Source: Reichenbachiella agarivorans (lineage in GTDB: Bacteria; Bacteroidota; Bacteroidia; Cytophagales; Cyclobacteriaceae). From it: DNA of 64,000 nt. Position 1 is the first letter of the stretch. Each line of letters starts with the position of its first letter. The notes beneath the pieces were generated by a model. That model saw only the letters and a program-made list of their open reading frames with translations. It searched no databases and was not told the origin of the DNA. A program made the translations under genes and the position numbers. Shown here in pieces: positions 9,542 through 56,054 of the stretch. The stretch covers positions 3,875,501 to 3,939,500 of the forward strand of contig NZ_CP106679.1 of the NCBI RefSeq assembly GCF_025502585.1, written 5' to 3'.

Positions 9542-10815
9542 TTCACTAAAACCTCGTCCCCCACCTGCGTTTGCCATTGCTGCAGTTGCTCCACCAAGGT
9601 TGCTTCGATCCGTTTGGACTTTCTTTTATCAATCAGATTGTGGGTCTCCCAGGGGTCTTGGCTCAGATCGTAAAGCTCGCGATCTCCAGACTTGGGGTAG
9701 ATGATCAACTTGTTATCACCCGAGATGATACCCCGCTGACTGTCGAACATCGCCAGGTAAATCGACCCACGTGCGCCCGAGCCCTGCTCGATCTGAGGTA
9801 ACAGACTCTGGAAAGCCACATGCTCAGGCTTGGGTATATCGAGCAGATCCAACAGTGTCGGATATACATCCTGTAGATACACTCTTTCTGCTATTTTTTT
9901 GTCAGCCGACTAGCCTGGAGCTTTGATAATCAGCGGTGCTGTCACGCTAGGCTCGTAGAGGCACACCTTACCCGCCACGCCATTTTCGCCAAAGCTGATC
10001 CCATGGTCGCTCATGAATACAATGATGGTATTGTCATACTGCCCACTGGCTTTGAGTGCAGCGATGATATCCCCAATCCTCTCGTCCATATGAGTAACCA
10101 TAGCGTTGTTTTGCTGCACACGATTGCGCATAGTCTGCTTACTCAGCGGAGCATTGGTGTAGTTATATTCGATATTGGGATTGAGTGGGCCTTCTACCAC
10201 ACTGGGAGGTAAAGGCATCTCATCTACTGGATATAGGTCGTAGTATTTTTGCTCAGTCTGTCGTGGTACATGCGGCGCATTGAAAGCCACATAGAGGAAA
10301 TAGGGTGCTTCGTTATTATAGTTCTCAATGAAAGAAACCGCTTCCTGACCTGTGATGTCCGTCACGTGTCCCTGTGGTGTATTATAAGTCTTGAGTTGAC
10401 CAGGTTGGATACTACCCAAGCTATCGAAAATCTCAGCTACTGGCTTGCCCCAAGCATGCCACTTGCCCGTCATGTAGGTCGCATAGCCTTTCTCCTTGAG
10501 TAGTTCAGGCATAGACTTGGGCGCATTGTCTTTGGCAGTATTTTGGCTATCCCAGAGGTACTGACCATAGAAAAGCATCGTACGACTCGGTACGCAAACC
10601 GCTGGCGACCAGCAGCCCATGTTGTAGGCAGAGGTAAAAGACACCCCCTCTTCTGCGATCCGATCGATATGAGGTGTCTTCATGACTGGGTAGCCAAACG
10701 CCCCCACGGCCTGATTGCTCTGATCGTCAGACTCGATGAATAGGATATTTGGTTGAGCGATACCTGCTACCGATACGCCTAATAATAGATAAAGAACGAA
10801 TAGTCTTTTTTTCAT
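9538..10815 (-). pseudogene. S1 family sulfatase interrupted by an in-frame amber codon
   Basis: The frame codes for a secreted formylglycine-type sulfatase. It has a signal peptide (1-20), a metal-binding ESDDQ near residue 30, and the modification motif CVPSR with Cys74 as the formylglycine precursor. SDHGISFGENG lies in the metal and substrate region. After residue 301 (IIKAPG) a TAG at 9912-9910 ends translation. The same frame then runs on through VYPTLLDLL to a normal C-terminus at 9538, about 115 more residues, so the only visible lesion is one codon. Sulfatases in porphyran clusters remove sulfate from L-galactose-6-sulfate units; that substrate is inferred. The truncated product would lack the C-terminal subdomain and is probably inactive. 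Readthrough or a sequencing error is not excluded. Confidence 0.82.
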
Positions 10816-42808: not shown

Positions 42809-43105
42809 ATGAAACCAACTACCTTGTACTTGACAATTGCAAGTGTGATTCTTTTGATTTGGAACTATCCAACAGAATCAGCTCAAGCAAAAATCTCGCA
42901 ACAAATACTCCCTACAACAAGCCAGGATTCTTGGGTAAAATCAACCAAACTACAAAAGGTTGCAAATGGCAAGGAGCAAAAAGAATCGAAAGACAATTCA
43001 TTTTCTTTTTACAAACCTACACGCATTCGTAACATTTCATTAACCATAAGTAAACGATTAATGCAATTAATTCCTTTTATATTATCAACTAACCAAAACC
43101 ATTGA
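42809..43105 (+). CDS. Small secreted hypothetical protein
   Basis: This 98-residue frame has a signal-peptide-like N-terminus (MKPTTLYLTIASVILLIW). The rest is Lys/Ser/Gln-rich and I do not recognise it. It is coupled by TGATG to the DUF4136 gene, which supports its reality, but it has no conserved motif I can name. The 214 bases before it hold no recognisable gene. Confidence 0.45.
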   Translation: MKPTTLYLTIASVILLIWNYPTESAQAKISQQILPTTSQDSWVKSTKLQKVANGKEQKESKDNSFSFYKPTRIRNISLTISKRLMQLIPFILSTNQNH

Positions 43106-43716
43106 TGAAAAAGATTCTATATGCATTTTGTTCGGTAGTCATGATATGTCTACAGGGCTGCTATCCATCTGGTCCAGAGTACGCAGAAGAACTGGATGTA
43201 GTCTATACCGCCTTTGATGAAGCATTTGATTTTGATGTACAGGCGACTTATGCCATGCCAGACAAAATCGTGATTGATGTAACTATTGATCAAAATGGAG
43301 ACACCACTTACGTCTACATGAAGGAAAAATATGCCACAGCTATCCTCAACAAAATTGATGACAATATGCAGTCCTATGGCTGGACCAAGGTAGCTACTGA
43401 TCAATCACCTGACATGGTCATCACACCAGCTGGTATATCCAACACCAATTATTTCTACAATTGGTGGTACAACTGGTGGTATCCTTACTATTACTGGGGC
43501 TGGTACTATCCTCCATATTTCACGATAAGTAGCTATACTGTAGGTACCATGATCCTTGTCATGTCACATCCCGAAGAAGATAGCCCAATTGGTCAATCCC
43601 TCGCTCCATGGATTTCCGTAAGCAATGGCATACTGACCAACTACAATGACATAGATCGAGCAACCGGTGCTATCGATCAGAGTTTTGAGCAATCACCCTA
43701 TTTGAAAATCAACTAA
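43105..43716 (+). CDS. DUF4136-type lipoprotein
   Basis: The 203-residue protein has a lipoprotein signal ending LQGC (Cys19). The mature part matches the DUF4136 pattern: FDVQATYAMPD, then NKIDDNMQSYGW. An aromatic-rich stretch of Trp and Tyr near residue 115-135 and a YTVGTMILVM strand follow. The start ATG overlaps the stop of the upstream small gene. DUF4136 lipoproteins are outer-membrane associated and of unknown function; a barrel gene follows 13 bases later. Confidence 0.78.
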   Translation: MKKILYAFCSVVMICLQGCYPSGPEYAEELDVVYTAFDEAFDFDVQATYAMPDKIVIDVTIDQNGDTTYVYMKEKYATAILNKIDDNMQSYGWTKVATDQSPDMVITPAGISNTNYFYNWWYNWWYPYYYWGWYYPPYFTISSYTVGTMILVMSHPEEDSPIGQSLAPWISVSNGILTNYNDIDRATGAIDQSFEQSPYLKIN

Positions 43717-43729
43717 CCCACATAGACAG

Positions 43730-44320
43730 ATGAAGAAGCTATTATTAATACTGACAATCTGTGTAGCTACGCTTTCGCTAGCTCATAGTCAAGATAGACA
43801 AATCTCCATAGCATATTCTGTGGCCATACCTCTCGGTGATGTAGGTGATTATATCCAAAATGTAAGTCCTCGCGGTGTGTATTTGAACTACAGTCACTTT
43901 TTCTATGAGAAGATTTCAGTAGGACTCAGTGCTGGCATCACCACGTTTTATGAGGAGAAAGCCAGTGACACTTATAGTTCAGGCAATATTACTGCTACAG
44001 GGAAGCAGTTTAGGTATAGCAATCACATCCCTCTAATGGCCACTGCAGCATATTATTTACAACCTGAAAGTAAGTTTAATCCCTATGCTCAAATAGGAAT
44101 TGGGACCATGTACACGAGGAGGGATACAGATATGGGCATCAAAAGTGTAGAGGAAGAAGCTTGGGGATTTGCTTTGGCTCCAGAGATAGGCATTCAATAT
44201 GAACTCTCAATGTCAAAATCTCTCTTGTTCTCCATCAAGTATTGCAATGGATTCAAAGCAGGCAACGAATTGGATCAATCGCAATCTTTTTTAACATTCA
44301 ATTTTGGTATTACTTTATAA
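43730..44320 (+). CDS. Outer-membrane beta-barrel protein
   Basis: The 196-residue protein has a signal peptide ending AHSQDR and short alternating strands. It ends LTFNFGITL, as in small OmpA-like or OmpW-like barrels. It is coupled to the DUF4136 lipoprotein gene (13 bases). No function can be named. The next gene is 227 bases away and that gap holds nothing clear. Confidence 0.7.
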   Translation: MKKLLLILTICVATLSLAHSQDRQISIAYSVAIPLGDVGDYIQNVSPRGVYLNYSHFFYEKISVGLSAGITTFYEEKASDTYSSGNITATGKQFRYSNHIPLMATAAYYLQPESKFNPYAQIGIGTMYTRRDTDMGIKSVEEEAWGFALAPEIGIQYELSMSKSLLFSIKYCNGFKAGNELDQSQSFLTFNFGITL

Positions 44321-44547
44321 ACGAACACCCTATATGATCTGTGATGGAATCAAAATCAGCACTTTACCGTGTCACCCTTTTCAAATAAACTCAACGAACA
44401 CAGTATTTGTTCACTCATTCTAATCAAAAATAAAACAGAAAAACCGTCTGAAAGAGGAAGTTTCGGTAATTTTAATAAAACAGGTATGTGATATAAGATT
44501 AACTTACTTACATGAATTATTCTCGTAACAATAAATCAATTATAACT

Positions 44548-46098
44548 ATGAAAAAACGAACTGTAGTTTTTAATACTGCGCTTCTTTTGATGCTTATGCT
44601 ACCCGCTTTGGCATTTGCACAAAAGAAAAAACCCAATATCCTTGTGATATGGGGAGATGATATCGGACAATCGAACATCAGCGCTTATACACTTGGAATC
44701 ACTGGGTATCAAACAAAAAATATTGACAGAATTGCTAAGGAAGGAATGATATTCACCGACTACTACGCAGAGCAAAGTTGTACGGCCGGACGCTCATCCT
44801 TTATTCTAGGGCAAAGCGTATTCAGAACAGGATTGAGTAAAGTAGGTATGCCAGGTGCAGCAGAAGGGATATCTGAAAAAGATCCAACGATTGCTGAACT
44901 ACTCAAGCCTGCGGGCTACGTTACTGGTCAGTTTGGTAAAAATCACCTTGGAGACAGAGATGAACACTTACCAACCAATCACGGTTTTGATGAGTTTTAT
45001 GGTAACCTATATCATTTGAATGCGGAGGAAGAACCAGAATTACCAGATTATCCAGATCCAAAAGAATACCCAAATTTCAGAAAAAACTTTGGACCTAGAG
45101 GAGTGATTCATTCAACTGCCGATGGTAAAATTGAAGATACGGGACCATTGACTAAGAAAAGAATGGAAACCATAGATGATGAATCATCTGAAGCAGCCAT
45201 AAAGTTTATTAGGGAAGCTGTAAAAGCTAACAAACCATTTTTCGTATGGTGGAATGGTACACGCATGCACTTCAGAACACACGTAAAACCTGAGTTGAGA
45301 GGAATATCAGGACAAAATGAGTATGGCGATGGCATGGTAGAACATGACATGCATGTTGGGAAATTTTTAGACCTTTTGGATGAATTGAAAATTGCTGACA
45401 ACACGATTGTCATGTACTCAACAGACAATGGCCCACACAAAAACACTTGGCCTGACGCTGGTATCAATCCATTCAGAGGAGAAAAAAACACCAACTGGGA
45501 AGGTGGTTGGAGAGTCCCTGCTATGGTAAGATGGCCTGGTACAGTTGAGCCTGGGTCTATATGTAATGAAATCATGTCTGGTATGGATTGGATGCCTACT
45601 TTCTTGGAGGCTGCAGGTCAAAAAGACGTACCTCAAAAGCTATTAAAGAGCTATACCGCAAATGGAAGAAACTTTAAAGTGCATCTAGATGGCTACAGCT
45701 TTGTGCCTTATTTCAAAGGTGATGTGGATAAAGGCCCTAGAAAAGAAATTTTCTATTTCTCAGATGATGGAGATTTGACAGCCTTAAGATATGATGATTG
45801 GAAGCTTGTATTTATGGAGCAGCGATCTCCTGGTACTTTGCAGGTATGGGCAGAGCCATTTATTCCATTGAGGATGCCTTTGGTCTTTAACCTGAGAAGA
45901 GACCCTTATGAATTTGCAACAATTACTTCCAACACGTACTACGATTGGTTGCTGGATCATGCATTTATGTTGGTACCTGCACAAAAAATTGTAGGAGATT
46001 TCTTAATGACGTTTAAGGATTACCCTCCAAGAATGAAAGCTGCTAGTTTTAGTTTGGATAAAGTAATGGAAAAGTTGAATACACCTAGAAATAACTAA
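44548..46098 (+). CDS. S1 family sulfatase with CTAGR motif, first of a tandem pair
   Basis: From the ATG at 44548 the protein has 516 residues and a signal peptide ending LAFAQ. A metal-binding WGDDIG lies near residue 36 and the modification motif CTAGR at Cys78, a C-x-A-x-R variant of the formylglycine site. Later motifs are GKNHLGDRDEHLP and STDNGPH. S1 sulfatases use formylglycine and one calcium ion to cleave sulfate esters. The substrate is unknown; unlike the sulfatase at 9538-10815 there is no glycosidase nearby. It starts a plus-strand gene set that runs to the MoxR/Bat genes, with the paralogue only 12 bases later. Confidence 0.93.
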   Translation: MKKRTVVFNTALLLMLMLPALAFAQKKKPNILVIWGDDIGQSNISAYTLGITGYQTKNIDRIAKEGMIFTDYYAEQSCTAGRSSFILGQSVFRTGLSKVGMPGAAEGISEKDPTIAELLKPAGYVTGQFGKNHLGDRDEHLPTNHGFDEFYGNLYHLNAEEEPELPDYPDPKEYPNFRKNFGPRGVIHSTADGKIEDTGPLTKKRMETIDDESSEAAIKFIREAVKANKPFFVWWNGTRMHFRTHVKPELRGISGQNEYGDGMVEHDMHVGKFLDLLDELKIADNTIVMYSTDNGPHKNTWPDAGINPFRGEKNTNWEGGWRVPAMVRWPGTVEPGSICNEIMSGMDWMPTFLEAAGQKDVPQKLLKSYTANGRNFKVHLDGYSFVPYFKGDVDKGPRKEIFYFSDDGDLTALRYDDWKLVFMEQRSPGTLQVWAEPFIPLRMPLVFNLRRDPYEFATITSNTYYDWLLDHAFMLVPAQKIVGDFLMTFKDYPPRMKAASFSLDKVMEKLNTPRNN

Positions 46099-46110
46099 TC
46101 AATCATTAAT

Positions 46111-47622
46111 ATGAAACATACAACTAATATTTTATTAGTACTGCTAATGCTACCCGCTTTGGCATTTGCACAAAAGAAAAAACCCAACATCCTAGTGATA
46201 TGGGGAGATGATATCGGCTGGAGCAACGTCAGCTACATGAACAATGGTCTGATGGGATACAAGACCCCAAACATTGACCGAATAGCTAATGAAGGTGCCA
46301 AATTCACCGATTGGTATGGACAGCAGTCATGTACTGCAGGTCGAGCAGCTTTTATCTTAGGACAACATCCATTCCGAACTGGGCTTTTGACCATCGGCAT
46401 GCCAGGATCAAAGCAGGGTATTCAAGACAATCAGGCAACTATCGCCGAAGTATTGAAACCACAAGGCTATGTATCTGGTCAATTTGGCAAGAATCACTTA
46501 GGTGATCAAGACCAACATCTGCCAACCGCACATGGATTTGATGAATTCTTTGGAAATCTCTATCACCTCAATGCTGAGGAAGAACCAGAAGGTTACTATT
46601 ACCCAAAAGACCCAGATTTTAGAAAAAAATATGGCCCACGTGGCGTATTAAAGAGTAGTGCCGACGGAAAAGTACAAGATACAGGGCCATTGACTAAGAA
46701 ACGTATGGAAACTGTAGACGAGGAGTTTGAAGCTGCTGCAGTGGCCTTTATTAAAAAAGCACATGCTGAAGGCAAACCTTTCTTTTGTTGGTTCAATTCT
46801 ACACGTGTACACGTATGGACTCACCTAAAACCTGAAAGTGAAGGAGCTACAGGCATTGGTCTCTATCCAGATGCGATGGCAGAGCATGACCTCTCAGTAG
46901 GTAGACTGCTTGATTTGCTCGATGAATTAGGCATTGCTGACAATACGATCGTAATGTACTCTACAGACAATGGTGCTGAAAAATTCACATGGCCTGACGG
47001 TGGTACTACACCATTCGCTGGTGAAAAAGGAACTACATGGGAAGGTGGTTTCAGAGTACCTACAGCCATTCGTTGGCCAGGTGTGATCAAGCCAGGCACA
47101 GTCTACAATGACATATTCTCTCATGAGGACATGATGCCTACCTTAGCAGCTGCAGCAGGTGAGCCAAACTTGAAAGAAAAGATGTTGAAAGGCTATAAAG
47201 CCAACAATAAGACTTTCAAGTCTCACCTAGATGGTTATAATTTGATGCCGTACTTCCAAGGAAAAGAAAAAGAAGGTCCTCGTAAGGAAATATTCTATTT
47301 CGATGCTGGAGGTAACATGAATGCTATTCGTTATAACAACTGGAAGTTGCACTTTACTATCATGGAAGGTTCTATCAATGAGGCTTACAGAAAAGCTCCT
47401 AGCTGGCCAATTGTAATCAATTTGAGAGCAGATCCATACGAAGTTTCATGGAAAGCAGCACTCTACACCAAATGGTACGGTGACAATATGTGGCTGTTTG
47501 TGCCTGCACAGGCTTATGCTGGGCAGTTCTTGTCCACATTCAAAGAATACCCTCCTGTCATGGGCTCTTCGCTATCTATTGACAAGGTGGTTCAAAGCAT
47601 GACGGCACCACCGAAGAACTAA
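46111..47622 (+). CDS. S1 family sulfatase with CTAGR motif, second of a tandem pair
   Basis: The 503-residue protein has a signal peptide ending LAFAQ, WGDDIG near residue 31 and CTAGR with Cys74. GKNHLGDQDQHLP and STDNGAEKF are later active-site motifs. It is a close paralogue of the sulfatase 12 bases upstream. The region coding the signal peptide and first strand (46147-46217) differs from the upstream copy at only two of 71 bases, which is much closer than the rest of the gene. A terminator-like hairpin follows it, so read-through would be needed to reach the HAD and MoxR genes. Confidence 0.93.
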   Translation: MKHTTNILLVLLMLPALAFAQKKKPNILVIWGDDIGWSNVSYMNNGLMGYKTPNIDRIANEGAKFTDWYGQQSCTAGRAAFILGQHPFRTGLLTIGMPGSKQGIQDNQATIAEVLKPQGYVSGQFGKNHLGDQDQHLPTAHGFDEFFGNLYHLNAEEEPEGYYYPKDPDFRKKYGPRGVLKSSADGKVQDTGPLTKKRMETVDEEFEAAAVAFIKKAHAEGKPFFCWFNSTRVHVWTHLKPESEGATGIGLYPDAMAEHDLSVGRLLDLLDELGIADNTIVMYSTDNGAEKFTWPDGGTTPFAGEKGTTWEGGFRVPTAIRWPGVIKPGTVYNDIFSHEDMMPTLAAAAGEPNLKEKMLKGYKANNKTFKSHLDGYNLMPYFQGKEKEGPRKEIFYFDAGGNMNAIRYNNWKLHFTIMEGSINEAYRKAPSWPIVINLRADPYEVSWKAALYTKWYGDNMWLFVPAQAYAGQFLSTFKEYPPVMGSSLSIDKVVQSMTAPPKN

Positions 47623-47638
47623 TTATACAATAACTTTT

Positions 47639-47676
47639 ATTTCCTTGAGCACATCGTTGCTCAAGGAAATTTTTAC
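47639..47676 (+). terminator. Intrinsic terminator or attenuator after the sulfatase pair
   Basis: A perfect 13-bp stem (ATTTCCTTGAGCA with TGCTCAAGGAAAT, 47639-47651 and 47658-47670) with a 6-base loop CATCGT precedes a run of T. It lies 16 bases after the second sulfatase stop and 14 bases before the HAD lipoprotein ATG, so it may let the sulfatases be expressed above the downstream module. Confidence 0.85.
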
Positions 47677-47689
47677 TTACCACGCTTAT

Positions 47690-48703
47690 ATGAAACCCTC
47701 CCTATACACAATACTTTTAGCTGGTACCTGCCTGATATTTTCTTGCCAGCCTACACCACAACCCATAACCGAACAAAAAGAAATTAAAGACCCACTTCCT
47801 TCTTGGAATGAGGGCAGTAATAAAACAGCAATCATTGATTTTGTCAATGTAGTTACTGATGACCAGAATCCTGAGTATGTAAAGCCTCTTGATCGGATTG
47901 CCGTATTTGACAATGACGGTACACTTTGGTCAGAGCAACCAGCCTATTTCCAACTTTTCTTTGCCATAGATCGCATCAAGGCGATGGCATCAGATCATCC
48001 TGAATGGAATGAGCAACAACCCTTCAAAGCTGTATTGGAAGGTGATATGAAAGCACTTGTGGCTTCTGGAGAAAGAGGATTGATAGAATTGGTGATGACC
48101 TCACATGCAGGTATGACAACTGATGAATTCGAGCAAATCGTCACTGACTGGATCGCAACTGCCAAGCACCCCAGGTTTGACAAACCCTATAATCAACTCG
48201 TGTATCAACCTATGTTGGAATTGTTAGATTACCTCAGAGCCAATGAGTTCAAAACCTTCATTGTATCTGGTGGTGGTATAGAGTTTATGCGACCTTGGGC
48301 CGAAGCAGTCTATGGCATACCAAAAGACCAAATTGTCGGGAGCAGTATCAAAACAAAATTTGAAATCAAGGAGGGTGTACCGCAAATCACACGTCTACCA
48401 GAACTGGATTTTATAGATGACAAAGAAGGGAAACCAGTCGGCATCTGGAAATTCATAGGTCGCAGACCCATCTTTTGTGGCGGCAACTCCGATGGTGACC
48501 TACAGATGATGCAATATACCGCCTCTGGTAAATACAAATCGATGATGCTGTATGTACACCATACCGATTCTGTGCGTGAGTGGGCCTATGACCGCCAGTC
48601 ACATATCGGCCAGTTTGACAAAGGTCTGGATGAAGCAAAAGCCAACGGATGGAACCTTGTGAATATGAAAGATGACTGGAACAAGGTATATCCATTCGAT
48701 TGA
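47690..48703 (+). CDS. HAD-superfamily phosphatase-like lipoprotein
   Basis: From the ATG at 47690 the protein has 337 residues with a lipoprotein signal ending IFSC (Cys19). HAD motifs are complete: DNDGTLW (nucleophile and acid/base Asp), TFIVSGGGIEF, and the C-terminal acidic GNSDGDLQM. Similar to the phosphoserine-phosphatase branch, but extracytoplasmic and lipid-anchored, so its substrate is likely an envelope or imported phosphate ester. It follows the sulfatase pair and precedes the MoxR set. Confidence 0.87.
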   Translation: MKPSLYTILLAGTCLIFSCQPTPQPITEQKEIKDPLPSWNEGSNKTAIIDFVNVVTDDQNPEYVKPLDRIAVFDNDGTLWSEQPAYFQLFFAIDRIKAMASDHPEWNEQQPFKAVLEGDMKALVASGERGLIELVMTSHAGMTTDEFEQIVTDWIATAKHPRFDKPYNQLVYQPMLELLDYLRANEFKTFIVSGGGIEFMRPWAEAVYGIPKDQIVGSSIKTKFEIKEGVPQITRLPELDFIDDKEGKPVGIWKFIGRRPIFCGGNSDGDLQMMQYTASGKYKSMMLYVHHTDSVREWAYDRQSHIGQFDKGLDEAKANGWNLVNMKDDWNKVYPFD

Positions 48704-48728
48704 TTAAACCACCATAACCATTAACCTA

Positions 48729-49469
48729 ATGAACATAAACTTGACCAAAACGACTATAGGAAGACAACACTGTCTCGAAAAAATAGAGCGATCACCCTTG
48801 TTTGATAGGACTGTTTTATTAGTCGTTTTGATCATTTTAATTTTTGGCAGTACTGATCTACGTGCCCAAGATGCCAACAACCCCATTGACCCGAGTCCCA
48901 CTGGAGGATTATGGAATAGATTCTATGGAGAAGATCAATCACGGCTACAATTTTTAACCAACCTGACCTATGGCAATTGGTTCTACAGATTCACCGCCGA
49001 AGCAGAGTTTAATTACAACAACAACCCCAACGATAGTCGATTCAGTGGTGCTAACTTTCTCGTTGCTAGATTGTTTAAATCAAAAAATGGCCTGCATCAT
49101 TTCGGCATAGGAGGTGTGGTTAGCTACTATCACAAATCTCGCTGGGCAGGAGGTGTGAATTTCGTCTCGGTAAGCAAATTCGGTGACTGGAAAGTCATTA
49201 CGCTGACCACTTTACAAGGTGGCAAAGATATCTTCACCATGGAGTTCCAACCAGGACTGTACCATGACTTTGAGAATGGATGGTATTTTAGGAGTCACCC
49301 CCGCATGTTATTTGATTTTGAGAATGAACAACACGAAATTCCTATAGGAGCTGGGGTAGGTAAAATATTAGATACCAACGGACCAGTAATTAACTTATTC
49401 TTCGAACCTCAGTATGATTTGCACAACAAGCTACCCATGCTTTATACAGGTATTAAAATGTTGTTTTAG
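48729..49469 (+). CDS. Putative outer-membrane protein
   Basis: The 246-residue protein has a late hydrophobic segment (about 28-42) ending TDLRAQD, so the true start may be internal or the signal unusually long. The mature part is beta-rich with aromatic turns (NLTYGNWFYRFTAE, HFGIGGVVSYYH) and ends KMLF, a terminal Phe typical of outer-membrane barrels. No family is recognised. Its place between the HAD lipoprotein and MoxR suggests it belongs to the same system. Confidence 0.65.
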   Translation: MNINLTKTTIGRQHCLEKIERSPLFDRTVLLVVLIILIFGSTDLRAQDANNPIDPSPTGGLWNRFYGEDQSRLQFLTNLTYGNWFYRFTAEAEFNYNNNPNDSRFSGANFLVARLFKSKNGLHHFGIGGVVSYYHKSRWAGGVNFVSVSKFGDWKVITLTTLQGGKDIFTMEFQPGLYHDFENGWYFRSHPRMLFDFENEQHEIPIGAGVGKILDTNGPVINLFFEPQYDLHNKLPMLYTGIKMLF

Positions 49470-49551
49470 TCCCTATGTGGCAGCAAAATCATGATATTGA
49501 GATAATTGTACGAATAAAATTTTAGCAAACAAAACGATCAAACATACCGAA

Positions 49552-50517
49552 ATGACTACATTAGAATCAATCCAAGAGCTAAAAACTAGAATGTCAGCCT
49601 CTATTATTGGGCAGGATCAATTGATCGATCGCATCATCTTGGTGTTGCTAGCAGATGGCAACATGCTCCTCGAAGGCCTACCTGGCTTGGCAAAAACACG
49701 CGCCATCAAGTCTTTGTCTAAAGAGCTCAATTGTGGATTGAGCAGAATCCAGTTCACCCCAGATCTCTTGCCTTCCGATATTACAGGCACAGAAATCTAT
49801 CAACCCGAACTGGAGGAAAAATTTGTCTTTCAACGGGGACCTATATTTAGCAACTTGATTCTGGCGGATGAGATCAACCGAGCCCCAGCCAAAGTGCAAT
49901 CTGCCCTACTAGAAGCGATGGAAGAGCGGCAGGTATCTGTAGCGGGTCAGACCTATCCCATGGATTCGTTGTTTATGGTCATGGCTACTCAAAATCCTGT
50001 AGAACAAGAAGGTACCTATCCCCTACCAGAGGCTCAAATGGACAGATTCCTGATGCATGTGATCATCAGCTACCCAGATGATGCCTCCGAACTCACAATC
50101 CTACGTCTCAACAGACAAGAACAAACAGCAAGTAAGAAAGAACAAAAAGACCGCATCTCTCCTGAGGTCATTTTTGCAGCAAGACAAGAAATCGCTGAAG
50201 TCAAAATATCGGAGAATATGGAAAAATACATTGTGGATATTATTTCAGCCACCCGCTATCCTGAAAAATACAACGATGAATTGAGGAGCTGGATAGATTT
50301 TGGTGCTAGTCCTAGGGGCTCTATTGCGCTGGATCGTGCCAGCCGAACCCATGCTTGGATGAGTGGCAACAAGGCTGTGACGCCTGACGATGTCCGTGCA
50401 GTGGTCCACGACTGCTTGCGCCACCGTTTGATTCTCAGTTATGAAGCCAACGCCGATGGTATCACCGCAGATCAAGTGTTGGACGAGGTTTTAAAACAGG
50501 TCGCAGTAGTGGGTTAA
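49552..50517 (+). CDS. MoxR family AAA+ ATPase
   Basis: The 321-residue protein has the MoxR-type Walker A GLPGLAKT (residues 42-49), Walker B with ILADEINRAPAKVQSALLEA, and sensor 1 region ATQNPVEQEGTYPLPEAQMD. MoxR ATPases act as chaperones with VWA partners to mature metalloenzymes or envelope complexes. It is followed 81 bases later by DUF58 and then by four overlapping genes, and is the likely motor of this set. Its C-terminal lid (RHRLILSYEANADG) is standard. Confidence 0.96.
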   Translation: MTTLESIQELKTRMSASIIGQDQLIDRIILVLLADGNMLLEGLPGLAKTRAIKSLSKELNCGLSRIQFTPDLLPSDITGTEIYQPELEEKFVFQRGPIFSNLILADEINRAPAKVQSALLEAMEERQVSVAGQTYPMDSLFMVMATQNPVEQEGTYPLPEAQMDRFLMHVIISYPDDASELTILRLNRQEQTASKKEQKDRISPEVIFAARQEIAEVKISENMEKYIVDIISATRYPEKYNDELRSWIDFGASPRGSIALDRASRTHAWMSGNKAVTPDDVRAVVHDCLRHRLILSYEANADGITADQVLDEVLKQVAVVG

Positions 50518-50598
50518 TTCACTCGCCTCTACCAATAGTAAATCTCCCTCGTACATAAAAAACTGCTTAGAAACATCTATGGGAGAAAAAAATGACCC

Positions 50599-51543
50599 AT
50601 GAAAAACAAAACCTCACATATCGATTACCCCAAAGACGTCTTCACCAGTTTGAAAGAACTGCTGTCAATGGAGCGTTTTGCTCAGGTCATGAGCCTATTG
50701 GCTAATAAACAAAAGGTAAAAAGTGTACTTGGAGGTAAGCATGCATCCAAATTGCGAGGGAGAGGACTGGACTTTGAAGAAGTGAGAAACTATGTCAAAG
50801 GAGACGATATTCGCAACATTGACTGGAAAGTAACCGCCCGCACCAAACAAACACATACCCGTGTGTTTAGTGAAGAAAAGGAGAAACCAGCTCTCATCGT
50901 AGTGGATCAATCAAAGACGATGTTTTTCGGTTCGCAAGTACGAACCAAATCTGTAGTAGCTGCAGAACTAGCGGCAGTGGCGGCATTTCGTGTACTCAAA
51001 CAAGGGGATCGTGTCGGAGGAGTTGTCATAGCTGACGATGGCATAGACATCATCCAACCTAAGCGAGACCGGCGCAATATCCTTCGTTTTCTAGAAAAAA
51101 TAGTAACTCGAAACCAAGCGCTTGCAGACTCAGTAGTTGCTTCCAGAGAAAATGTACTCAAAGAAGCCATGTTGAAAATACGCAACCTAGTGACACATGA
51201 CTATCTCGTGGTAGTCATCAGTGACTTCAATCAATATTCCTTGGATGTCATGCGTTTCATTTCTCAAATCGCACAACACAATGATGTGATTTTGGCCAAA
51301 GTGACTGATCCTATGGAGAAGATCATACCCTCAACCAAGTTTGTAGCAGGAAATACCGACACACAAGTAACTGTGGACGGAAAACACAAAGCACTGAGAG
51401 ATCATTTTGAGACGGGTTTTGAATCAGATTATCAAAATTTTCAATCACAGATGAAAAAACATCGAATCCCAGTGTTTACCATCAATACGGTAGATTCTAT
51501 TGATGATCAATTGAAGGATGTTTTTGCTGGAAGGAAAAAATGA
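50599..51543 (+). CDS. DUF58 domain protein (MxaS-like)
   Basis: The 314-residue protein has the DUF58 signature GRGLDFEEVRNYVKGDDIRN and IDWKVTART near residues 53-80. A degenerate VWA-like site DQSKT follows near 105. It corresponds to MxaS in methanol dehydrogenase clusters and to the first Bat partner of MoxR elsewhere. Its stop overlaps the next start by 4 bases (ATGA). No transmembrane segment is seen, so it is probably cytoplasmic, at the membrane. Confidence 0.94.
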   Translation: MKNKTSHIDYPKDVFTSLKELLSMERFAQVMSLLANKQKVKSVLGGKHASKLRGRGLDFEEVRNYVKGDDIRNIDWKVTARTKQTHTRVFSEEKEKPALIVVDQSKTMFFGSQVRTKSVVAAELAAVAAFRVLKQGDRVGGVVIADDGIDIIQPKRDRRNILRFLEKIVTRNQALADSVVASRENVLKEAMLKIRNLVTHDYLVVVISDFNQYSLDVMRFISQIAQHNDVILAKVTDPMEKIIPSTKFVAGNTDTQVTVDGKHKALRDHFETGFESDYQNFQSQMKKHRIPVFTINTVDSIDDQLKDVFAGRKK

Positions 51544-52031
51544 CACAACAACCTCAACATATAGCAGATAGTGTACAACTAAGCTCTGGAGCGAAAGAGA
51601 TCGCCCTGCAAGGACTGTATGAACCATCCCCATTCACCTTTACTTTTGAGACTGTGGGATGGAGTATTTTGCTTGGTGTGATCGTATTGATACTTATGCT
51701 TGTACTCATTTTCCAAGTCAGGAAGTACATTCACAATCGCTACCGCAGAGAAGCTATCCAAGAAATGGAGGCACTGAATCAGGTGACCTTGAGTGCTATT
51801 TTTACGATCATCAAAGGTGTAGCTATTCAAGTTTTTGGACGAGAGCAAGTCGGTGCATTACACGGTGGTGCGTGGCTCATTTTTTTGGAGAAAAGTGCAA
51901 AGGGCGTTCAGTTTACTCAATACGAAACAGACATTTGCCTTGCACTCTATGCCGACGAGCAAGTAGACGAAACCGTACAACAAGAAATTATTTCCAACGC
52001 AAAAAAGTGGATATTGACCCATGCCAGATAA
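51540..52031 (+). CDS. DUF4381 domain membrane protein
   Basis: The 163-residue protein has one transmembrane helix (about 38-60) followed by the DUF4381-like YRREAIQEMEALNQ and GALHGGAWLIFLEK motifs. The segment before the helix (LQGLYEPSPFTFTFETVGW) is the usual periplasmic lead. It overlaps DUF58 by 4 bases and the VWA gene by 11. DUF4381 proteins occur almost only with MoxR-DUF58-VWA genes and have no known activity. Confidence 0.88.
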   Translation: MTQQPQHIADSVQLSSGAKEIALQGLYEPSPFTFTFETVGWSILLGVIVLILMLVLIFQVRKYIHNRYRREAIQEMEALNQVTLSAIFTIIKGVAIQVFGREQVGALHGGAWLIFLEKSAKGVQFTQYETDICLALYADEQVDETVQQEIISNAKKWILTHAR

Positions 52032-53031
52032 TTTCCATATAGCATTCCCTTGGGCGTTGGCTCTGTTGCCACTACCGCTACTGGTATATTGGCTACTGCC
52101 ATCACTAAGGATGCGCAGTGCGGCGTTGCTTTTGCCCAACTACCACAAGGCAGTAGAATATACGGATCAAAAACCACGAAAATCAGCCTTTGTAAAGAAG
52201 AGAGGCCTATTTAGTTGGCTAATCATGTTTGTCATCTGGTGTCTATTGGTCGCAGCAATGACCAACCCTCAGCTAGTGGGCAAACCAGAAATGAAAATCA
52301 AAACCTCTCGCAATTTTCTGATCGTGGCAGATATTTCATTTAGCATGGCCAAGACTGATTGGAAAATAGATGGTAAAAAATCACGGCGGTGGGACGCAGT
52401 AAAGGACGTCATGCATGATTTTATCCAAAAGAGAAAAGGAGATCGTATGGGTTTGGTGTTTTTTGGAACCAATGCGTACATACAGGCACCATTCACGCCC
52501 GATTTGCTCACAGTAGGCCAAATGCTCGATGAAGCTGACGTGGGGATGGCAGGTCAGATGACTCACATTGGCAAGGCGATCAACAAAGGTTTAGAAATGT
52601 TTGACAATGACACGCTCAAAACCAAGGTCATGCTTTTGCTCACTGATGGAATCGATGCTGGAGACGGGATCCAGCCCTTGGATGCAGCTGATAGAGCGCG
52701 CAAAGATTCTGTGATGATCTACACCTTGGGCATCGGCACACCTGGTCATGGTGGGTCTGATCTCGACGAACGCACCTTGGAGCAGATAGCGGAATTGACA
52801 GGTGGTCAATATTTTCTAGCTAAAGATGAAAACCGACTCAAAGAAATCTATAGCGAGCTAGACAAATTGGAACCTATGGAATATGAAGAAACACAAAACA
52901 AACCTGTCACCATGCTCTACCCCTACCCATTGGCTGTAGCCATGGCACTGGCGATTTTATCTACCATGCTGTCAGTATTCGTGAGCGCGATCAAGGTTTT
53001 TAGAGAAAGAAAGGAGGCCAACTATGCTTGA
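52021..53031 (+). CDS. VWA domain membrane protein (BatA-like)
   Basis: The 336-residue protein has transmembrane segments near 8-24, 62-80 and 305-325. They flank a von Willebrand A domain with a full metal-adhesion site: DISFS near residue 104 and TDGIDAG near 204. It overlaps the DUF4381 gene by 11 bases and the next gene by 8. In MoxR systems VWA proteins are the partners contacted by the ATPase, with the domain facing the periplasm. Confidence 0.93.
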   Translation: MPDNFHIAFPWALALLPLPLLVYWLLPSLRMRSAALLLPNYHKAVEYTDQKPRKSAFVKKRGLFSWLIMFVIWCLLVAAMTNPQLVGKPEMKIKTSRNFLIVADISFSMAKTDWKIDGKKSRRWDAVKDVMHDFIQKRKGDRMGLVFFGTNAYIQAPFTPDLLTVGQMLDEADVGMAGQMTHIGKAINKGLEMFDNDTLKTKVMLLLTDGIDAGDGIQPLDAADRARKDSVMIYTLGIGTPGHGGSDLDERTLEQIAELTGGQYFLAKDENRLKEIYSELDKLEPMEYEETQNKPVTMLYPYPLAVAMALAILSTMLSVFVSAIKVFRERKEANYA

Positions 53032-54742
53032 CGGTTTGTTCCCCATAGACTGGGAAGTTTTTCACTTTCTCAGACCTAGATTTTTGTGGCTGATCATACC
53101 CATAGTACTCATCCTACTGCTAGGTTTAGTGAGTTTTGCTCAAGAAATCCGCTGGAAAGTGGTCATTGCTCCGCATCTGAGACCCTATGTCATCCAAAAA
53201 GGCAATCAGCGAACCAAAGCATGGATGAATTTTGCCTTGCTCCTCATGTTGTGTTTGGGCGTGTTGGCACTGGCTGGCCCTACATGGAAAACAATCAAAC
53301 TCCCTGGTCGGGTCTTAGAAACACCTATGGTCATTGTGCTGGATCTGTCTCAAAGCATGATGGCAGAGGATCTCCAACCCAATCGCCTAGAAAGAGCCAA
53401 ATTCAAAATTCAGGATTTACTCGAAAAGAACCCAAGAGCACGTGTGGCATTGGTTGGTTTTGCTGGTACTGCTCACACCATCGTACCTTTGTCATGGGAT
53501 TATGAAATCATCAACAGCCATATCAAAGGTTTAAAACCCTCAGTCATGCCCTATCCTGGTTCGGATTTAGGGGCAGCATTGGTACTGGCTGATACAATCA
53601 TGTCAGTGACAGATGCACCTGGCACGGTGGTTATTTTGACCGATGATTTTGATGACAGCCTGTTTAGCATTTTCAAAGATTTTACCGAAAGGACTCAAAA
53701 CAAAATAGAAATCCTACCTATGAACACCCCAGGTGGCAGTACCATTCCGACACGTTGGGGTCGTGGCACGATGAAAGACAGTGATGGACACCCTGCCTAC
53801 TCATCAATCAACCAGGCCACACTCAACAAACTGGGATCACTAGAAGGTGTCACAGTCAATGCCATGACACTAGATGACAGTGATGTAGAGGTGATTAGCA
53901 AAAAAATAGCCGCTCACTTGAAGTTTACTGAGCAGCCCAAAGAGAAGAAGGATGATTGGCGAGATGCGGGTTGGTTATTGATTTTCCCAATGGCCTTTCT
54001 TGCCTTATTTTGGTTTAGAAAAGGTTGGGTAATATATGCTGTGTCATTGTTCTTGTTGTCATCCTGTGGTCAAATAGAAACATTTGAAGATCTATGGTTT
54101 ACCAAAAACTATCAAGGCCAAAAACTGGCCAATGAAGGAAAGTATGAAATGGCTGGAGATCGATTTGACGACATGATGCACAAGGGAGTGGCTTATTATA
54201 AAGCGGGTGATTATGATCAGGCTATCAAGGCATTTGACCAAGACACCACTGCCATCGGTGCCTACAATCTCGGCTTGGCATACTTTCAAAATGGTGATAC
54301 GATCGCTGCGCTAATGGCTTTTGATCAGGCAGTAGCACTAGACCCTCAGCTACAACCCGCTCGCAGCAACCAACAAGCCCTAGGCAGACTGGTAGGAACA
54401 GATGGTATGAGTGTAGGCACTGCTGCAGAAGAGGACCACAGCTCCCAAGCCAAAATGAAGCGCAACGACAGCATGGAAGACCTGAGTGGTGGAGGGCAAG
54501 AAGCAACTAAAAAAGACATGGAAAAAAAGCGGCTAGAAGAAAATGTGGCATCCAACATTCACAAGGGAAAGGAACTCGATATGCCTCCTAAAGACATGGA
54601 TATTGAAATTCAAAAACAGAACGATACCAACATCATCATGCAAAAAGTAGATGACGATCCTTCGATGTTTTTGCAGCGAAAATTCGAATATCAGGTACGC
54701 AAAGACCAAATAAAACCCAAAGCCAATGAGACCAAATGGTAA
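53024..54742 (+). CDS. Fused VWA and TPR membrane protein (BatB-BatC-like)
   Basis: This 572-residue protein joins two proteins that are often separate. The first part has transmembrane segments near 15-33 and 64-82 and a VWA domain with DLSQS near residue 108. After membrane segments near 310-345 there is an internal lipobox-like LLSSC (Cys348). TPR-type repeats follow at about 365-455 (GVAYYKAGDYDQAIKAFDQ, LGLAYFQNGDTIAALMAFDQ). The tail is Lys/Glu/Met-rich. The internal Cys motif suggests the TPR half came from a separate lipoprotein. It overlaps the BatD-like gene by 17 bases. Confidence 0.9.
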   Translation: MLDGLFPIDWEVFHFLRPRFLWLIIPIVLILLLGLVSFAQEIRWKVVIAPHLRPYVIQKGNQRTKAWMNFALLLMLCLGVLALAGPTWKTIKLPGRVLETPMVIVLDLSQSMMAEDLQPNRLERAKFKIQDLLEKNPRARVALVGFAGTAHTIVPLSWDYEIINSHIKGLKPSVMPYPGSDLGAALVLADTIMSVTDAPGTVVILTDDFDDSLFSIFKDFTERTQNKIEILPMNTPGGSTIPTRWGRGTMKDSDGHPAYSSINQATLNKLGSLEGVTVNAMTLDDSDVEVISKKIAAHLKFTEQPKEKKDDWRDAGWLLIFPMAFLALFWFRKGWVIYAVSLFLLSSCGQIETFEDLWFTKNYQGQKLANEGKYEMAGDRFDDMMHKGVAYYKAGDYDQAIKAFDQDTTAIGAYNLGLAYFQNGDTIAALMAFDQAVALDPQLQPARSNQQALGRLVGTDGMSVGTAAEEDHSSQAKMKRNDSMEDLSGGGQEATKKDMEKKRLEENVASNIHKGKELDMPPKDMDIEIQKQNDTNIIMQKVDDDPSMFLQRKFEYQVRKDQIKPKANETKW

Positions 54743-56054
54743 ATTCTATCTGATTTGGGTGTGGTTGGCGATAGTAGCGCTCACCACAGACCTACAGGCG
54801 CAAAGGCTTTGGAGTCAGGTGCACCTCAACCGCTCGGCTACCTATGTCGGTCAACCTGTTGAGGTCAGTATCACAGTGTACACTTCTACATGGTTTACCT
54901 CTGGTTTGGACTTGGGCAACATCCAGATTGATGGTGCTTATACAATTTATTTTAGACCCGTCAGTGTGTCCATGTATGTAGATGGTGTCAATTATCCGGG
55001 TATCCAACTGATCTACCACGTTTTTCCTTATCAAGAAGAGGACATTGTCTTTCCATCTCTGACTTTGGAAGTAGAGACTCCTCCAGATGGAGATTTCAAG
55101 GGTGTAAAACACCACCTAAAAACGCAAGAAAAGGTAATCAAAGTACGCCCAGCTCCTCCAGGGTTTGATAAGACAGACTGGCTGGTGGCTACAGGAATGT
55201 ATGTATCTGATCATTGGTCTGGCAGCCTGAAACAAGTAAAAGTTGGAGATGTACTGGAGCGCAAGATTGCTCGTACCGTGTATGGTACAGTTGCCGAATT
55301 GATTCCTCCTATTGGATGGGATAGCACGGCCAGTGTGAGCATGTACCCCGATCGCAGCATCACCCACAACGAAAAGGGAAAAACCAGCATTAGTTCGTCG
55401 CGAACAGAAGGCATGCGGTATCTTTTCGAAAAGGAAGGCACGGTCACTTTGCCCGAAATGGTGTTTACCTATTTCCATCCCTATCGCAAAAAACTCTACA
55501 AACGCACACTCAAATCGATAACAATCGAGGTACAACCCAACCCTGATTTGGGCGTGCTCAAAAGTGTGCGTGACAGCCTACTCGTGCAGCAACAGACAGT
55601 GGAAGCCACTGCGCAAGAAGATCAGCCTTGGCGTTTTATGGGATTGTCAGCCAAACAGCTCGCTACCATCTCGGTATTGTCTCTGCTCATGCTGTACATA
55701 CTGATCAAGGTGTTGCGGTATTTGATCGCTGCGTTTCGTCAGCACAGACAAAACTACCGAGCATCGGAGGCATACTTTTTTGACCTTTACAAAAAAGCCT
55801 CTCACCACAACAAGGCAAACCAGTCAGAACAAGCACTGTATCGATGGATCGACGAATTGAAATTGGAACAACCTACCTTACGCTACTTTGTAGACAATTT
55901 TGGAACCGATGCCTTGCGACAAGCATTTTCCAATCGAGAAACTGTCTCTTCTCTTTGTCTCCATACAAAGGAATGGAAATCAGCCAGAAAGAATTATCTA
56001 CAAAGTCAAAATCAATTGGGCTTTCAATCTCAACCAGGATGGATCAATCCGTGA
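54726..56054 (+). CDS. BatD-like membrane protein
   Basis: The 442-residue protein has a signal peptide ending LQAQR. Beta-sandwich domains follow (LNRSATYVGQPVEVSITV and PPIGWDSTASVSMYPDRS), as in BatD/oxygen-tolerance proteins. One transmembrane helix lies near residue 310-335, and a helical cytoplasmic tail (YRASEAYFFDLYKKA) completes it. It is shorter than many BatD proteins. It ends the plus-strand block that starts at the sulfatases, with an 87-base gap to the convergent DinB-like gene. Confidence 0.88.
   Translation: MRPNGKFYLIWVWLAIVALTTDLQAQRLWSQVHLNRSATYVGQPVEVSITVYTSTWFTSGLDLGNIQIDGAYTIYFRPVSVSMYVDGVNYPGIQLIYHVFPYQEEDIVFPSLTLEVETPPDGDFKGVKHHLKTQEKVIKVRPAPPGFDKTDWLVATGMYVSDHWSGSLKQVKVGDVLERKIARTVYGTVAELIPPIGWDSTASVSMYPDRSITHNEKGKTSISSSRTEGMRYLFEKEGTVTLPEMVFTYFHPYRKKLYKRTLKSITIEVQPNPDLGVLKSVRDSLLVQQQTVEATAQEDQPWRFMGLSAKQLATISVLSLLMLYILIKVLRYLIAAFRQHRQNYRASEAYFFDLYKKASHHNKANQSEQALYRWIDELKLEQPTLRYFVDNFGTDALRQAFSNRETVSSLCLHTKEWKSARKNYLQSQNQLGFQSQPGWINP

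Follow-up and report, generated by a model that had tools for sequence, protein, structure and literature searches.

Does the set of MoxR genes that follows two sulfatase genes in Reichenbachiella agarivorans act on those sulfatases? The genes lie in a window of 64,000 nucleotides (contig NZ_CP106679.1, positions 3,875,501 to 3,939,500) from a genome, here termed G000, that is a single contig of 4.47 Mb with a completeness of 98.18%. The open reading frames (ORFs) of the window include ten consecutive plus-strand genes, from 44512 (or an internal ATG at 44548) through 56054 (Table 1). An earlier note on this DNA had described such a run from the sulfatases through the MoxR set, and this is confirmed by the ORFs, by Pfam and by a CTAGR motif in both sulfatases. 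Pfam identifies two Sulfatase proteins, a HAD protein, MoxR (AAA_3, 209 bits), DUF58, DUF4381, VWA, and VWA with TPR, and no dehydrogenase among the ten. We propose, with a probability of about 0.6, that the six-gene set is a MoxR-VWA maturation chaperone of the inner membrane and periplasm that serves one subfamily of S1 sulfatases.

DUF4381 was used as the marker of the MoxR set in genome searches. It was matched in five of eight genomes of the genus (strongly in four), in 52 of 296 Bacteroidota (the window being the only strong match), and in 161 of 397 Pseudomonadota, 46 of 199 Planctomycetota and 28 of 247 Desulfobacterota. Neighbourhoods were fetched for four genus, ten weak Bacteroidota, 97 Pseudomonadota, nine Planctomycetota (all the matches above 100 bits) and 14 Desulfobacterota loci, and were scanned with profiles that drew on the window and on loci of the HAD lipoprotein. 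The latter came from a separate scan of named genomes, in which the best 80 of 184 relatives, from several phyla, were taken; L045, from Reichenbachiella agariperforans, has a sulfatase, a HAD gene and a MoxR set. Seven of the ten weak Bacteroidota loci scored as ordinary Bat-type sets, and the survey was therefore moved to the other three phyla. Pseudomonadota genomes with at least two listed copies were fetched first, so that linked second copies are over-represented and the 24 clade members among 96 loci do not represent a population frequency. Twelve of 136 fetched regions held no scorable set (L143, L145, L146, L156, L157, L160, L201, L255, L256, L258, L261 and L263). L141, on the same contig as L045, was dropped before the counts, and L242, which holds two sets, was counted once.

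A tree of concatenated MoxR, DUF58 and VWA1 sequences (133 loci from four phyla, 954 columns, LG+G4) places the window inside a group of 46 loci with a Shimodaira-Hasegawa-like approximate likelihood ratio (SH-aLRT) of 100. In a more careful tree of 69 of these loci the clade has an ultrafast bootstrap (UFBoot) of 100 and an SH-aLRT of 99, and it was recovered in 200 of 200 bootstrap trees. It stands apart from the Bat sets of the Bacteroidota, of which three of seven were present in the smaller tree (UFBoot 100, SH-aLRT 99) and all seven in the larger. Both trees used LG+G4 without a mixture model, and no root was inferred. Of the clade loci, 36 were found by DUF4381 alone and nine by the HAD scan; the remaining one is the window. 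The Walker B pattern is present in all 46 sets and a strict Walker A pattern in 40, while the DxSxS of the metal-ion-dependent adhesion site (MIDAS) is found in VWA1 of 46/46 and VWA2 of 28/44. The six-gene set of the window is one of the MoxR-DUF58-DUF4381-VWA-VWA/TPR-BatD sets that make up this distinct clade, for which support is good.

An S1 sulfatase accompanies the set at no more than 5 kb in 38 of the 46 clade loci, but never in the 87 others, and these counts are the same at thresholds of 25, 60 and 120 bits. The linked clade loci comprise 22/24 in Pseudomonadota, 8/11 in Bacteroidota, 5/8 in Planctomycetota and 3/3 in Desulfobacterota; outside the clade the corresponding figures are 0/72, 0/7, 0/1 and 0/7. 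Among the 36 clade loci found by DUF4381 alone (two of them from the genus of the window), 31 are linked. The sulfatase detector recovered 21/21 PF00884 genes in control stretches of the window's own genome. In 35 of the 38 linked loci the nearest sulfatase shares the strand of the set, and in 30 it lies upstream of MoxR. The clade is linked to a CTAGR sulfatase subfamily in all four phyla, which strongly supports the suggestion of the earlier note that the MoxR set serves sulfatases.

Could this linkage be incidental, a general Bat-type stress operon lying in sulfatase-rich DNA? Some of the genomes are indeed rich in sulfatases, and eight clade loci are unlinked. However, none of the 87 other Bat-type loci is linked, and the same genomes provide an internal control. 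Two or more sets were fetched from 14 genomes, 13 of which held both kinds; a linked clade set was present in 12 of these 13, and a linked set of the other kind in none. On this basis incidental linkage was rejected. In the genome G525, two of the three clade sets adjoin sulfatases, and one of those two is also accompanied by an anaerobic sulfatase-maturating enzyme (anSME). Chance alone was expected to produce linkage in 0.55 of 20 Pseudomonadota genomes that hold a clade set and have 1-17 PF00884 matches each; it was observed in 19. Given also that the link spans four phyla, co-location by accident is highly improbable. The genetic linkage makes it very probable that the set is dedicated to sulfatases.

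Which sulfatases are these? A FastTree analysis of 161 sulfatases gathered all 48 that neighbour a set into one S1 subclade of 99 rows, the others being 42 members beside a HAD gene only and nine more. CTAGR, which fits the C-x-[AP]-x-R pattern of S1 formylglycine sulfatases, a DN pair and a DD pair are each present in 48/48 linked sulfatases. The calcium ligands of AtsA are Asp13, Asp14, Asp317 and Asn318, which the DD and DN pairs match (PMC5066984, where calcium-dependent sulfatases are described), and the active-site calcium of S1 sulfatases is essential (PMC10154612). The best solved relative of the window sulfatases is the arylsulfatase 7aj0, at 204-212 bits. We rejected the notion that the set serves every sulfatase, since 20 of the 21 other sulfatases read from the same genome fall outside the linked subclade. 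The one that falls within it (L284, genome position 2434518; L322, 3093-4583 on the minus strand) has no MoxR set in the 8 kb fetched. A DUF1254/DUF1214 protein adjoins it.

A number of observations weigh against a sulfatase chaperone. Eight clade loci (L006, L007, L011, L164, L181, L245, L246 and L249) have no sulfatase nearby; the genome that holds L181 (G517) has a single PF00884 match, of 62 bits. L255 and L258, left out of the counts, are by their scores likely clade members cut short, and neither piece contains a sulfatase. The earlier note had taken MoxR-Bat sets without a sulfatase neighbour to speak against its interpretation. Such sets do occur, 87 outside the clade and eight inside it; 38 clade loci are nevertheless linked, and the interpretation as a whole is partly supported. 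Many sulfatases of the subfamily adjoin a HAD gene, and the DNA fetched around them shows no set. A HAD-only subclade of 19 sulfatase rows lacks any MoxR link, and G313 has a subfamily sulfatase with no DUF4381 match, so that the set cannot be a requirement for all members. No feature that we saw in the 48 linked sulfatases accounts for a need for help. Composition warnings were given for both set trees, and long-branch warnings for the larger. In favour of the proposal, distances between sets correlate with distances between sulfatases (Mantel r = 0.51 over 38 loci, with 0 of 2000 permutations as high), but this result is inflated by kinship among the loci.

A further difficulty lies in the other neighbours, one of which might be the true client of the set within the same pathway: the set could assemble some other envelope protein encoded beside it, for instance the putative barrel, the HAD lipoprotein or a multiheme cytochrome c/TPR protein. 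One clustered protein family occurs within 6 kb in 18/46 clade loci and 0/87 others. In 16 of the 18 it is a cytochrome c/TPR protein with 7-8 CxxCH motifs (L006, L007, L011, L058, L166, L171, L174, L180, L184, L186, L192, L199, L227, L231, L252 and L262), found also in the sulfatase-less Tamlana loci, and this could be a client; in L165 and L168 it is a shorter, haem-less HEAT-like protein. HAD is present within 5 kb in 24/46 clade loci compared with 0/87 others, and redox enzymes are among the known clients of MoxR systems (PMC3893208, PMC12657314). Yet the sulfatase is the most constant neighbour (38/46), no ORF of the window has two or more CxxCH motifs, and no set was seen in 71 of the 80 HAD loci, many of these stretches being short. 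We therefore regard another client as unlikely.

Among solved structures the HAD protein is related to 4ovy (phmmer, 414 bits), and of the characterised proteins the Pseudomonas phosphorylcholine phosphatase 4as2 comes closest to it in fold (TM-score 0.53, 15% identity). Among the best 80 of 184 HAD loci, in which a number of contigs or stretches are short, 63 have a sulfatase at a distance of up to 3 kb and nine have a MoxR set. Because it tracks the sulfatases and resembles 4as2, a role as a phosphatase partner is likelier for this protein than one in maturation. It probably acts as a phosphatase in the periplasm, alongside sulfatases with or without a MoxR set nearby. The earlier note's suggestion that the HAD lipoprotein and the barrel handle the product or import is a conjecture. 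The barrel has its strongest matches in clade loci L142 (248 bits) and L074 (97 bits), and weak ones elsewhere. In the Tamlana loci a small lipoprotein and possible barrels were seen by eye upstream of HAD-MoxR. Seven clade loci only (L174, L176, L178, L189, L228, L232 and L271) share a membrane protein family, three checked members of which have a spermidine-synthase domain.

How might the set act on its sulfatases? A cytoplasmic MoxR hexamer would use ATP to drive an inner-membrane complex of the DUF58, DUF4381, two VWA and BatD proteins. The VWA domains, with their MIDAS, and the BatD parts would take hold of the sulfatase after its export and finish the assembly of its active site. Action in maturation, in the broad sense, is probable. 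The likeliest step would be loading of Ca2+, or folding of the enzyme about its calcium site, an Asp-Asp/Asp-Asn site beside the formylglycine; this is favoured because MoxR-VWA pairs have been reported to insert metals and the calcium of S1 sulfatases is essential. MoxR and MoxC/L are said to support calcium insertion in methanol dehydrogenase (PMC12657314), and NorQD enables metal insertion, of Fe in nitric oxide reductase (PMC13036017). Calcium loading specifically, argued by analogy with such systems, is a tentative proposal. We infer every mechanistic step beyond the linkage itself.

The comparison with known systems is instructive on both sides. The Mxa system (MxaRSACKL) is likewise a MoxR and VWA cluster beside a periplasmic calcium enzyme (PMC12657314), but its client is a pyrroloquinoline quinone enzyme rather than a sulfatase, and no mxa cluster is included in the set tree. 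In NorQD, CbbQO and RavA-ViaA a MoxR AAA+ protein and a VWA partner remodel a client and enable metal insertion (PMC13036017, PMC9976466); in contrast to the window set, the NorQD type has two proteins that are most likely cytosolic, and the parts of these papers available to us name no counterpart of DUF4381 or BatD. Bat operons share the MoxR-DUF58-BatA/B/C/D content, with NCBIfam models of Leptospira BatA and BatC matching the set below their cut-offs, whereas the seven scored Bacteroidota Bat loci outside the clade have no sulfatase within 5 kb. The ordinary DUF4381-MoxR sets of Pseudomonadota usually have the same six-gene order, yet outside the clade 0/72 are sulfatase-linked and their commonest other neighbours differ. 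In the open-access literature available to us in part, PMC7159879 included, we found no description of a MoxR/DUF4381 set tied to sulfatases.

The established maturation enzymes of sulfatases, the formylglycine-generating enzyme (FGE) and anSME, make the formylglycine, and Pfam and NCBIfam assign none of the MoxR-set proteins to either family. An FGE-domain protein lies within 5 kb in 10/46 clade loci (1/87 others) and an anSME in 3/46 (0/87), and one or the other is found in 12/46. We took the catalytic cysteine pair as the criterion for an FGE, as no NCBIfam FGE model fits, and seven of the ten clade-linked FGEs have it; the FGEs of L144 and L228 have GldK as best NCBIfam match, below the cut-off. 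The anSME of L165 exceeds the TIGR03942 cut-off (484 against 349 bits). In L144, from the sister genome G004, an FGE, two sulfatases and the MoxR set follow in a row. Among 12 FGE loci from the order of the window (L301-L312), eight have both a cysteine pair and, by eye, a lipoprotein-like N-terminus. These starts suggest that the FGE may be periplasmic in such Bacteroidota, with formylglycine made after export, on the same side of the membrane as the VWA and BatD domains. The combination of cysteine pair and lipoprotein-like start (by eye) was seen in L301-L305, L307-L309, L144 and L032.

Might the set then act on the formylglycine step itself, either by presenting the cysteine form of the sulfatase to a periplasmic lipoprotein FGE or by a novel route lacking both FGE and anSME? 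The FGE and anSME neighbours, and the FGEs of the window's order, are what such a role would lead us to expect, and the genome of the window adds to the case. It has 25 PF00884 matches (the weakest of 32 bits, and one with an internal stop), and four FGE-domain proteins, none with the cysteine pair (the G000 loci are L147-L150 and L321). These four were rejected as maturases; two look like the GldK/GldJ type, which lacks the FGE cysteines (PMC12421860). No anSME was recognised in the whole genome with the single model TIGR03942 (20 against 349 bits). The earlier note's statement that neither enzyme is present in the window thus holds, and extends to the entire genome for cysteine-pair FGEs and, by TIGR03942, for anSME. 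BLAST with the L144 FGE gave 52-100% identity in G002-G005; the best match in G000 was 35% over about 300 residues and in G001 33%, together with short pieces, and by this search G001 has no FGE orthologue. At 9835-10752 on the minus strand of the window there is a sulfatase match with an internal TAG, possibly a broken gene.

Within the genus, however, an FGE with the cysteine pair is present in G003 and G005, where no DUF4381 set is strong; both occur in G002 and G004, and neither in G006 and G007, a mixed distribution that does not fit simple substitution of one for the other. Moreover the other sulfatases of G000 lie far from the set, and anSME was searched with one model. A role in the formylglycine step therefore seems improbable. 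More doubtful still is a broader scheme, in which periplasmic maturation would be finished by an ATP-driven inner-membrane machine together with lipoprotein FGEs, and in genomes lacking FGE and anSME the complex with an oxidising partner would constitute a third route to formylglycine. That so sulfatase-rich a genome as G000 has no recognisable enzyme for making formylglycine is a separate question.

The gene structure of the window locus is summarised in Table 1. For sulfatase A the internal ATG is preferred over the opening at 44512, as it gives a plausible signal peptide, and for the HAD gene, whose ORF opens with TTG at 47645, the ATG at 47690 gives a lipoprotein-like signal. MoxR and DUF58 are separated by 81 bases. 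From DUF58 onwards the last five genes overlap, as the earlier note had observed, by 4, 11, 8 and 17 bases in turn. The DUF58 protein is presumably the counterpart of MxaS. The last protein falls under the Pfam cut-off for BatD (17 against 24.1 bits); its AlphaFold model (mean pLDDT 86.9) has an N-terminal helix, beta domains, a helix of transmembrane length and a helical tail, and is compatible with a BatD-like assignment. A fold search with this model gave no useful match, the query-normalised TM-score being at most 0.20 among the 50 matches listed. Just upstream of the ten genes, at 43102-44320 on the plus strand, are a DUF4136 lipoprotein and a small outer-membrane barrel.

Table 1. Genes of the sulfatase-MoxR locus, in window coordinates
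Feature	Position	Strand	Basis
S1 sulfatase A, CTAGR, predicted Sec-type signal peptide (by eye)	44548..46098	+	Pfam, motif; ORF opens 44512
S1 sulfatase B, CTAGR, predicted Sec-type signal peptide (by eye)	46111..47622	+	Pfam, motif
HAD phosphatase (probable), predicted lipoprotein signal (by eye)	47690..48703	+	Homologue of 4ovy; nearest characterised fold 4as2
Putative outer-membrane beta-barrel	48729..49469	+	No Pfam match; relative in locus L142
MoxR AAA+ ATPase, Walker A GLPGLAKT, Walker B DEINR	49552..50517	+	Pfam, motifs
DUF58 protein, MxaS-like position	50599..51543	+	Pfam
DUF4381 membrane protein	51540..52031	+	Pfam
VWA1, BatA-like, MIDAS DxSxS present	52021..53031	+	Pfam, NCBIfam
VWA2 + TPR, BatB/BatC-like, MIDAS DxSxS present	53024..54742	+	Pfam, NCBIfam
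BatD-like: signal helix, beta domains, transmembrane-length helix, helical tail	54726..56054	+	Weak Pfam score, AlphaFold model

MoxR-VWA systems are widespread, and few of their clients are known. With the sulfatase subfamily, a whole clade of MoxR sets gains a concrete candidate client, one that can be tested by a simple colour assay. Some sulfatases may need more than FGE or anSME for their maturation, which could explain why certain recombinant sulfatases are inactive, and could help in their production.

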